A DNA stretch of 34,237 bases from Ignisphaera sp. (lineage in GTDB: Archaea > Thermoproteota > Thermoprotei_A > Sulfolobales > Ignisphaeraceae), in assembly GCA_020833345.1 (NCBI GenBank), contig JAJHQM010000009.1:1-34237 (forward strand). The letters are read 5' to 3'. Both the position numbers and the translations under genes were made by a program. Below, one piece after another: positions 2,683-6,135 of this stretch (positions are counted from its first letter, which is position 1; every line of letters begins with the position of its first letter). Under the pieces are notes generated by a model, which saw only the letters and a list, made by a program, of their open reading frames with translations, did no database searches and was not told where the DNA came from.

Positions 2683-2897
2683 AAGCAATTCCGCTTCCTT
2701 CCTCTGAGTACTGGCAAGCAAGAAATGCTTCAGCAATTCAAAATTTAAACATACTCAACACCCTCTTTCAAAGTGCACAACCCTATGCACATATTCTCGC
2801 CATTGTGGGGATAGTGATCATTGTCGTAGCTATTGCACTTAAGCTTCTGCAGATAAGTAGAGGAGTGCGCCTTAAAGAAGCTATAGCGGATTTATAG
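2679..2897 (+). CDS. Small single-pass membrane protein, unknown
   Basis: A 72-residue ORF starting with GTG that overlaps the stop of the preceding membrane gene by four bases (GTGA), the usual sign of translational coupling. It has one strong hydrophobic helix, about residues 37-60 (ILAIVGIVIIVVAIALKLL), followed by a basic turn, so the C-terminus is probably cytoplasmic. It could be a small accessory subunit of the upstream membrane protein. Its last 17 bases overlap the 3' end of the convergent THUMP gene. No family recognised; the coupling and the clean membrane helix are the only evidence that it is real. Confidence 0.55.
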   Translation: MKAIPLPSSEYWQARNASAIQNLNILNTLFQSAQPYAHILAIVGIVIIVVAIALKLLQISRGVRLKEAIADL

Positions 2898-3432
2898 GCT
2901 CTCCAATTCTAATATTCTTGAAAACTACAGCTTTTGCAACACTAATTGCTGTTACAATATTCCACCTCCTAACACTTACAGTCCTTATGTACACAACCCA
3001 TTCAGGATTGTCTAAATTAACTTTTCTATTTATTTTCTCAGCTATAACCTTTATAGCATCTATTGAGTGCATTTTTACAAGCCTACCCCTTTCATCAACC
3101 ATGAACACCTTTCCATGCAACGTGATTCTGTAGGTAGCGTGTTCAGGAATCCTGGAAAGGGCATATTGCTGTGCTTTTTCTGTAACCCTGTCTATTAGGG
3201 GCTCAACAACAGTGTCGACAGGTATAACTCTATGCAAGGGGGTGTCCTTACCATAAATACACTTCTTCATCTCAAACCAGAATTTGTAGGGATCAGGTAC
3301 ACTAAGTAGTACTATTGATGGTCTAACTCTGACTATAACATATGAAGTTCCAACACAGCTATTTATTTGAGAAAAAGCCCAATCGAGATTTTCCTTTGAA
3401 GGCTCTAAGGTTATTATAACATTAAAACTCAT
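2881..3432 (-). CDS. THUMP domain protein, Tan1-like (probable tRNA acetylation/modification factor)
   Basis: A 183-residue protein. The N-terminal 70 residues form a small alpha/beta region; the C-terminal part (about residues 75-183) reads as a THUMP domain. This includes the typical late strand VNLDNPEWVVYI and the closing GEPINPL-like segment. THUMP domains bind the tRNA acceptor region. Stand-alone THUMP proteins related to yeast Tan1 assist N4-acetylation of cytidine in tRNA, and archaeal members are usually short like this one. No catalytic domain is attached, so the protein would act as a binding partner. The gene begins one base after the stop of the tandem Sm-like gene on the same strand, so the two form a tight operon. 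The Tan1 assignment is from fold pattern and length, not from an alignment. Confidence 0.75.
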   Translation of the reverse strand: MSFNVIITLEPSKENLDWAFSQINSCVGTSYVIVRVRPSIVLLSVPDPYKFWFEMKKCIYGKDTPLHRVIPVDTVVEPLIDRVTEKAQQYALSRIPEHATYRITLHGKVFMVDERGRLVKMHSIDAIKVIAEKINRKVNLDNPEWVVYIRTVSVRRWNIVTAISVAKAVVFKNIRIGEPINPL

Positions 3433-3433
3433 A

Positions 3434-3856
3434 TCACAACCTCTTCAAAATCTTTATGTACACAACTCCGCTTCGCGGAATTACATAGGCTCTATTTTGA
3501 TGCAGTATAGCAATTTCATTTCTAAGTGCTTTTACAAGCCTTCCACTTATATTATTATTATTGATGAGCTTTACCTCTATGTCTGAACCTATGAATTCTT
3601 CATCAAGAACAAAATCTTTTTCACAACACTCTCCATATCCATGTACATCGCTTTGCCCTGTAACCATGTATACTATTGATGATCGCGGAATTATTATAGC
3701 TGTGTTCTCAACAAGCATTCCTATTTCATAGTTAGAAACTTCATCAACAAGCCCCATGTGTTTGTTTCCATCAATTGTATAAACCTCTATGCTTCTACCT
3801 ACAAACCTCTCATCAATAATGAAATTACCTCTCCTCTTAAACTGATGATATGACAC
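3434..3856 (-). CDS. Protein with two tandem Sm/Hfq-like repeats
   Basis: A 140-residue protein made of an internal duplication. Residues 12-64 and 82-136 align without gaps over 53 positions with 22 identities, both ending IPRS..VY. Each copy has the beta-strand pattern of an Sm/Hfq barrel, for example IEVYTIDGNKHMGLVDEV, in which a D/N-G turn and a conserved glycine recall Sm motif 1. The fold assignment is my inference; the duplication is directly visible. A linker of about 17 residues contains a CC pair. The GTG start has no better alternative. A palindromic TATA-like box at 3891-3900 lies about 35-45 bases upstream. The next gene, one base away, encodes a THUMP protein, which favours an RNA-related role. 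Confidence 0.8.
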   Translation of the reverse strand: MSYHQFKRRGNFIIDERFVGRSIEVYTIDGNKHMGLVDEVSNYEIGMLVENTAIIIPRSSIVYMVTGQSDVHGYGECCEKDFVLDEEFIGSDIEVKLINNNNISGRLVKALRNEIAILHQNRAYVIPRSGVVYIKILKRL

Positions 3857-3890
3857 TATATGTGCACCAGGAGTTTAGATGCTGTATTGT

Positions 3891-3900
3891 ATTTATAAAT
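3891..3900 (-). promoter_or_regulatory. TATA-like promoter of the Sm-like/THUMP operon
   Basis: ATTTATAAAT, centred about 40 bases before the GTG start of the minus-strand operon. An archaeal TATA box normally sits about 25 bases before the transcription start, which would leave a short leader of roughly 10-15 bases. Confidence 0.45.
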
Positions 3901-3941
3901 ATAAACTATCTTATACCGCATTCTCTATTGTACAGCAGTAA

Positions 3942-5760: not shown

Positions 5761-5824
5761 TTGCAGGGTCCCCGTCGCTCCACCCAACATCACTTATCAG
5801 AGGAGCTCCTAAGGTCATCCCCAC
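5761..5824 (-). ncRNA. Candidate box C/D guide RNA (incomplete match)
   Basis: On the minus strand: GGGATGA (C-like, 5821-5815), a 14-base spacer, CTGA (D', 5800-5797), spacer TAA, GTGATGT (C', 5793-5787), then a 20-base stretch before CTGC (D-like, 5766-5763). The D' box, three-base spacer and C' box closely match those of the well-formed guide RNA at 6885-6935. The plus-strand sequence AACATCACTTATCAGA here reads AACATCACTTTTCAGA there. The block 5761-5820 holds 34 G+C in 60 bases, clearly above its AT-rich surroundings, as expected of structured RNA in a thermophile. Against it, the D box is imperfect and the second spacer is long. Confidence 0.4.
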
Positions 5825-5844
5825 TTAAGTACAGAGATATAAAA

Positions 5845-6135
5845 ATGATATTAAGCTTATATGCAAAAAACTGTGAGCTTTGTGGTGAAAAGCCTTCTAA
5901 ATTTGTATGCTTCGTATGTGGTAGATATGTATGTGAAAAGCATTATAATGAAAGACTTGAAAGATGTCTTGCATGTGCAGAAACACAGTGCGATATATGT
6001 AGAACTGCACTAGCGACCTCAAGATGTATTGAGTGTAATAGAAAAATATGTCATGGCTGTGCAATAGAATTAGATGAAGTGCGTAGAATTTGCTATAGCT
6101 GCTTTATCAAATATGGTATTAGCGTGCTCAGATGA
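5845..6135 (+). CDS. Double B-box-like zinc finger protein
   Basis: A 96-residue protein almost wholly made of two zinc-binding modules of about 40 residues. Module 1 reads CELCGEKPSKFVCFVCGRYV followed by CEKHY and CLAC. Module 2 reads CDICR, then CIECNRKICHGC, then CYSC. The spacing (CxxC, CxxC, Cxx[HC], CxxC) resembles B-box/LIM-like cross-brace fingers, which usually mediate protein or nucleic acid contacts. The ATG at 5845 is preferred over the TTG at 5761. The extra 28 residues look non-conserved, and that stretch is GC-rich and overlaps a candidate guide RNA on the other strand. It follows cysS and the small unknown gene on the same strand. The partner is unknown. Confidence 0.8.
   Translation: MILSLYAKNCELCGEKPSKFVCFVCGRYVCEKHYNERLERCLACAETQCDICRTALATSRCIECNRKICHGCAIELDEVRRICYSCFIKYGISVLR

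Follow-up and report, generated by a model that had tools for sequence, protein, structure and literature searches.

Organisation of the locus

The stretch of DNA that was analysed here, hereafter the window (34,237 nucleotides), corresponds to contig C35 in an Ignisphaera genome of 1.3 Mb. On its reverse strand it carries a gene for a protein of two similar halves, whose stop codon is separated by one base from the co-directional ORF downstream (Table 1). The internal duplication of the 140-residue protein is real, because the self-match lies above all of the shuffled sequences and because the family profiles of the two repeats align with each other. At an offset of 70, residues 12-64 match residues 82-134 without gaps at 22 of 53 positions, and the BLOSUM62 score between the halves was 112, whereas 20,000 shuffles averaged 24.3 and never exceeded 55 (z = 18). 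The alignment of the repeat profiles covered 54 of 55 columns with an hhalign probability of 99.1. A previous sequence-only reading had reported the same gapless identities and the shared ending IPRS..VY, both of which hold in the window protein, but it had extended the second copy to residue 136 instead of 134.

Table 1. Features of the two-gene locus (window coordinates).
Feature	Position	Strand	Description	Basis
Putative promoter of the two-gene unit	3890..3905	-	TATA-box-like TTTATATTTATAAATA, ~41 nt upstream of the GTG of the tandem gene	by eye
Tandem Hfq-like gene	3434..3856	-	140 aa, GTG start	ORF, family, AlphaFold2 model (two predicted Sm folds)
Repeat 1, predicted Hfq-type Sm domain	3656..3820	-	residues 13-67; basic rim-like R17/R21, acidic D38-E39, R58 aligned with Lys56 of Hfq	repeat alignment, MJ1435 profile match
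Sm2 motif, repeat 1	3674..3688	-	PRSSI in the window	repeat alignment
Linker	3611..3655	-	residues 68-82	family alignments
Repeat 2, predicted Hfq-type Sm domain	3446..3610	-	residues 83-137; E87 and K109 charge-swapped relative to repeat 1; IPR/PK replaces YKHAI	repeat alignment, MJ1435 profile match
Sm2 motif, repeat 2	3464..3478	-	PRSGV in the window; PKSSI in most relatives	
Downstream co-directional gene, ferredoxin-like + THUMP (Tan1-like)	2881..3432	-	183 aa	weak Pfam match, AlphaFold2, Foldseek

Two conserved residue pairs lie in the linker (region 3620-3643 of the window, reverse strand). Of these, His72-Gly73 is invariant across the Ignisphaeraceae and the Zestosphaera group, while the His is absent in a fourth family of the same order. 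A Cys-Cys pair (residues 78-79) is common to the Ignisphaeraceae and two members of that fourth family. As judged from these residues, a metal or redox site is possible. Elsewhere in the window, positions 5761-6135 on the forward strand encode a protein of 124 aa that is rich in cysteine, has two stretches with a weak resemblance to a B-box and is conserved in the Ignisphaeraceae in the same gene order.

Distribution of the family and coexistence with SmAPs

A search with the single sequence found the tandem protein in 24 of 60 relatives. Of 197 genomes sampled from the order, 50 contained it in a profile search, and these belonged to the Ignisphaeraceae (f1, the family of the window), the Zestosphaera group (f2) and, in a few cases, the fourth family (f4). 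The profile search also placed it in 17 of the 18 Ignisphaeraceae genomes, including 10 out of 10 complete ones. Moreover, a degenerate DNA pattern consisting of two motifs at a fixed spacing matched 34 loci in the GTDB genomes, every one of them crenarchaeal; the relatives obtained in this way included Ignisphaera, Zestosphaera tikiterensis and Desulfurococcales/Sulfolobales MAGs. In a sample of 300 genomes from the phylum, the profile had just weak, single-domain matches outside the order, and a tblastn search of phages and plasmids yielded no credible relative of the tandem protein. The tandem protein is a conserved chromosomal family, present in about 50 sampled genomes from three families of one crenarchaeal order.

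The archaeal Sm proteins SmAP1/2/3 (PF01423) share the Sm fold and occur in the same genomes as the tandem protein, those of hyperthermophilic archaea. LSM matches (PF01423) were found in 59 of the 60 relatives, usually two or three per genome, and the genome of the window has its LSM genes on contigs C17, C26 and C92. The tandem protein supplements the SmAP set of these genomes and does not replace it. A TIGR02383 search of the genomes of the relatives found no second convincing Hfq.

Several single-domain Hfq-like ORFs were also observed. One of 68 aa (L132, G439:C47, 514-720, reverse strand) follows a 1078-aa primase-polymerase-like protein at a distance of a few genes, in a region that is probably an integrated plasmid or virus, and it parallels the Hfq-like genes on Thermococcus plasmids. 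Others of about 70 aa with an RYW(V/I)KL...YINK signature (L058/L133 in G412 and L127, 1643-1861, reverse strand, in G049) adjoin mobile-element-like or CopG-like genes.

Predicted fold and relationship to Hfq

Hfq is a ring-forming RNA-handling protein that is otherwise known mainly from bacteria. The strand pattern of the protein had previously been read as one Sm barrel per half, and the AlphaFold2 model that was built with 31 family sequences (pLDDT 88.4, pTM 0.82) bears this out, as it predicts a short helix followed by five strands, twice; more exactly, the barrels are best described as Hfq-type. In the model, the beta3-beta4 turn (L4) is short in both halves (strands 44-49/52-57 and 114-119/122-127). 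The best single-domain fold match in Foldseek was the M. jannaschii Hfq (rmsd 0.9 A over 48 residues, probability 1.00), with the bacterial Hfqs next. When the family profile was compared with the PDB sequences, it matched the Hfq of M. jannaschii (MJ1435, 1e-6) and that of S. aureus (1.3e-3), and its match list contained no archaeal SmAP. Each repeat profile alone also had the MJ1435 Hfq as its top match, with E = 1.9e-8 for repeat 1 and E = 7.3e-6 for repeat 2. The lone window protein matched nothing meaningful among the PDB sequences, its best hit being Kelch-like with E = 0.27.

Four relatives passed the cut-off of the Hfq model PF17209 (L131 with 38.2 bits and 1.1e-9, L089, L068 and L078), and the window protein scored below the cut-offs of both PF17209 and TIGR02383. 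The latter model matched 29 of 31 members at E values up to 0.1, all below its cut-off, which was reached neither by any tabulated member nor in any of the genomes that were searched. According to a published comparison, Hfq is marked by a [Y/F]KHAI Sm2 motif and a short loop, whereas in the SmAPs Sm2 reads RGXX and the L4 loop is long (PMC4500138). Of 35 members, 24 have a His-bearing FRHA, FRHS or FKHA-like motif in their first repeat. An FRHAI/FKHAI-like form occurs in the other families as well as in one Ignisphaeraceae member (L018 of genome G012), while in the window protein and most Ignisphaeraceae it is replaced by a PRSSI-like sequence with loss of the diagnostic His; the His57 of Hfq is missing from both halves of the window protein. 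No RG was found at Sm2 in the repeat alignments of the family. Because MJ1435 is the top match for each repeat, four relatives exceed the Pfam cut-off and the FRHAI-like motif occurs in the family, the domains are best assigned to the Hfq type and not to the archaeal SmAP type.

MJ1435 (2qtx, 4x9c, 4x9d) is the nearest solved relative of both repeats in sequence and fold. It shares V..YEI with the tandem family, and most relatives also have its F(K/R)HAI ending in their first repeat. However, it is a single domain that forms a hexamer of identical chains, whereas the window family has two diverged repeats per chain and its hosts are Crenarchaea that also hold LSM proteins. Bacterial Hfq (PF17209, TIGR02383) has the same Sm1/Sm2 layout, the same short beta3-beta4 turn and a K/R at Lys56; compared with it, the tandem protein is a fused duplicate whose member in the window has lost His57 and falls under the cut-offs.

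These comparisons also bear on two other origins of the barrels. A duplicated and diverged archaeal SmAP/LSm of the heptamer type could explain why the LSM Pfam model was weakly matched by 5 of 31 members (best 0.0098) and why EDC3 and LSm6 chains weakly match repeat 2. Membership in SmAP/LSm was rejected since the Hfq models are stronger, for both halves by orders of magnitude. The RGXX motif and the long L4 loop, hallmarks of the separate, heptamer-forming SmAP subfamily (PMC4500138), are missing and LSM genes are already present in the genome, which makes this origin most improbable. It is also very unlikely that the protein is a RimP-C-like or RNase P p29-like factor of translation or ribosome assembly with just the small barrel in common. 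The weak matches to the RimP C-terminal SH3 and p29 models, which would fit such a factor, are far below the cut-offs and weaker than those to Hfq family-wide, and RNase P p29 appears in the PDB list at E = 2.5, after Hfq and LSm.

A single duplication and the divergence of the halves

In a tree of 70 repeats, 35 of 35 first repeats grouped together, as did 35 of 35 second repeats, with a local support of 0.82. Since the two repeats segregate as separate clades, one ancient duplication explains all members. The mean identity was 30% between the halves of one protein, compared to 45% within the first repeats and 45% within the second ones. Position 17 is R or K in all of the first repeats and its equivalent, position 87, is D or E in 33 of 35; position 39 is E or D in 33 of 35 and its equivalent, position 109, is K in 33 of 35, while D38 is invariant in repeat 1 only. 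The position of Hfq Lys56 is basic in all 70 repeats, with R58 in repeat 1 and K/R128 in repeat 2 (35/35 each).

A basic patch on the rim of the E. coli Hfq ring has been described (PMC5379935), and according to our own mapping by numbering, R17 would correspond to its Arg16. Based on this correspondence and on the opposite charge at position 87, repeat 1 seems to have kept a rim-like basic patch, whereas repeat 2 seems to have reversed the charge of the patch. Such a divergence in charge is the pattern that would be expected if the barrels alternate in a ring and have different roles towards RNA. This is consistent with the asymmetric RNA sites that had been proposed from the sequence in so far as the halves differ in a fixed, family-wide manner.

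Ring or fixed pair of barrels

The arrangement of the two barrels in the chain was compared with solved structures. The whole-chain Foldseek matches were tandem Tudor proteins and the 2x4j structure, with TM values of 0.26-0.34 and rmsd above 10 A, and no solved two-barrel template superposed well on the whole chain; kinship with the tandem Tudors, whose TM is below 0.3, was dismissed on the basis of these values. The 2x4j structure, ORF137 of the Pyrobaculum spherical virus (PSV), belongs to a crenarchaeal virus protein that aligned over both barrels and looks like a two-barrel relative, but its domain arrangement fails to superpose (rmsd 12.8 A), its identity is 14% and it is viral, not chromosomal. 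A variant Hfq-like protein of this virus was mentioned previously (PMC3543421). In the same work, zinc-finger/Hfq-like proteins were described from Thermococcus and Methanocaldococcus plasmids (PMC3543421); they share the archaeal Hfq-like domain with the tandem family but have one such domain, are plasmid-borne and lie beside replication genes. Additionally, residues 19-132 of the window protein aligned with positions 38-159 of NCBIfam NF010691 (PRK14091.1, RNA chaperone Hfq, 176 positions), across both repeats, at a score of 18.2 bits against a cut-off of 270. Judged from this alignment, NF010691 seems to be a two-domain Hfq model. In view of this model and of 2x4j, the earlier statement that no system of this kind had been described was too strong.

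The main rival to a ring is that the two Sm barrels are held as a fixed pair without ring closure and act as a monomeric or dimeric adaptor for RNA or protein, perhaps in the manner of tandem Tudor proteins or of PSV ORF137. The whole-chain matches to tandem Tudors, 2x4j and PSV/PSV2 proteins agree with it, as does the pTM of the lone chain, which indicates that AlphaFold2 preferred an intramolecular packing. We consider it unlikely, however, because the whole-chain superpositions are poor, the nearest relatives of each half in sequence and fold are ring-forming Hfqs and the complementary charges of the repeats suit alternation. Ring formation, which we infer from the Hfq homology and this charge pattern, is thus the preferred reading.

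In this reading, one ancestral Hfq gene was duplicated and fused before the divergence of the three carrier families. Each chain is predicted to fold as two Hfq-type Sm barrels, and three chains would most likely close into a pseudo-hexameric ring with the repeats alternating as R1-R2-R1-R2-R1-R2. Single-stranded RNA would be bound by this ring at its proximal pore, the site of the basic residue that is kept in all 70 repeats, and the ring would offer two chemically distinct classes of sites, as repeat 1 has the basic rim and, in most lineages, the U-pocket His, both of which repeat 2 has lost. It would probably act as an RNA chaperone or adaptor alongside the SmAP rings of the cell. From the Hfq homology and the charge pattern, we regard a trimeric pseudo-hexameric Hfq ring with two site classes and a role as RNA chaperone or adaptor as the probable explanation.

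The THUMP partner and other neighbours

The downstream gene had been taken for a THUMP protein one base away. The gap was confirmed, and the fold as well as a weak Pfam match support the identity. Pfam THUMP was matched weakly in 10 of 11 members of the partner family (183-185 aa), with a best value of 0.0011. The AlphaFold2 model (pLDDT 90, pTM 0.87) matched PH1313 (1vbk), ThiI 2c5s, CDAT8 3g8q, Trm11 and Trm14 in Foldseek. The partner combines an N-terminal ferredoxin-like domain with a THUMP domain and has no catalytic domain, which is the Tan1/THUMPD1-like layout, a class that is also marked by partnership with the NAT10/Kre33 acetyltransferase; the Tan1 homolog of M. thermautotrophicus has the same ferredoxin-like and THUMP layout, and THUMP domains capture the CCA end of tRNA (PMC9957541).

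The tandem and THUMP genes abut in 16 of 17 Ignisphaeraceae, being a few bases apart or overlapping. The exception is G012, a separate genus of the family in which the tandem protein has retained FKHAI; here the two genes lie on opposite strands with about 4.2 kb between them. In four genomes of the Zestosphaera group (G018, G028, G038 and G056), the two genes lie on different contigs, and no THUMP homolog was detected in the tandem-carrying f4 genomes G030 and G040. The THUMP gene itself is found across most of the order, and the majority of the genomes that have it lack the tandem protein. A universal THUMP operon was dismissed on these grounds, and the linkage, which is weaker than the sequence-only reading had it, is lineage-specific: the two genes adjoin only in the Ignisphaeraceae. 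In G044 (C1:831761-832268), the THUMP homolog is split into two neighbouring partial ORFs, which may reflect a frameshift or sequencing error.

The upstream co-directional gene in the Zestosphaera group varies by clade and encodes a CCA-adding enzyme, a TtuA-type LIM protein, a radical-SAM protein or an ABC permease (the last identified by eye only); a general functional neighbour in this group was dismissed for this reason. In L066, L074 and L083 (and L024 and L025), the order is a LigT/2'-5' RNA ligase-like gene, the CCA-adding enzyme and the tandem Hfq. The CCA-adding enzyme is a suggestive neighbour by analogy, since E. coli Hfq binds tRNA and stimulates this enzyme (PMC2175515). In one clade (L064, L067, L069, L073, L081, L084 and L090), a TtuA-type LIM-ribbon protein of 255-275 aa lies upstream of the tandem Hfq. 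No other TtuA domain and no recognisable PP-loop ATPase domain was matched in it, and it is possibly a degenerate tRNA thiolase paralogue.

In the Ignisphaeraceae, the tandem protein would be made from a two-gene unit with the Tan1-like THUMP protein, and because of this shared unit, tRNA would be one likely class of ligand. Moreover, Sso-SmAPs were found to co-purify with tRNA (PMC4500138). This tRNA link is plausible, but there is an almost even prospect that the THUMP gene is a mere hitch-hiker of synteny and the tandem Hfq a general RNA chaperone with no special role towards tRNA, a view that concerns the tRNA link alone and is compatible with the ring. The THUMP protein is widespread without the tandem gene and unlinked or undetected in the other carrier families as described above, the other clades have different neighbours, and the genes flanking the pair in the Ignisphaeraceae are also syntenic. 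On the other hand, the pair stays within a few bases or overlaps in nearly all Ignisphaeraceae, whereas its upstream flank changes, and two of the other neighbours, the CCA-adding enzyme and the degenerate TtuA, are likewise tRNA-related. A more far-reaching version of the ring model, in which a hyperthermophilic crenarchaeal lineage operates SmAP heptamers in parallel with an (R1R2)3 Hfq ring of obligate alternation and two classes of RNA site, and the ring serves in the Ignisphaeraceae as a dedicated tRNA platform with a co-translated THUMP adaptor, is speculative and somewhat unlikely as a whole.

Significance

Archaeal Hfq and THUMP proteins are known parts. A tandem, double or fused Hfq was not found described in the open-access literature, a scope that makes this weak evidence. 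The new elements are that Crenarchaea have a conserved double Hfq on the chromosome, that it coexists with SmAPs and that its two halves have diverged in a fixed manner. A survey of archaeal Lsm proteins from 2023 placed Hfq in bacteria and one archaeon, M. jannaschii (PMC10221803); in contrast, the chromosomal Hfq-type family presented here comes from Crenarchaea, where it is fixed in two families or more and exists alongside SmAPs. As its halves have diverged in a fixed way, the probable ring would carry two kinds of RNA site. The passage from a homomeric to a heteromeric ring is the step that was taken by the eukaryotic Sm/Lsm rings. A diverged single-chain double Hfq would be a natural experiment in the same passage from a homomeric RNA ring to a heteromeric one, and it would allow the RNA sites of each half-ring to be mutated separately.
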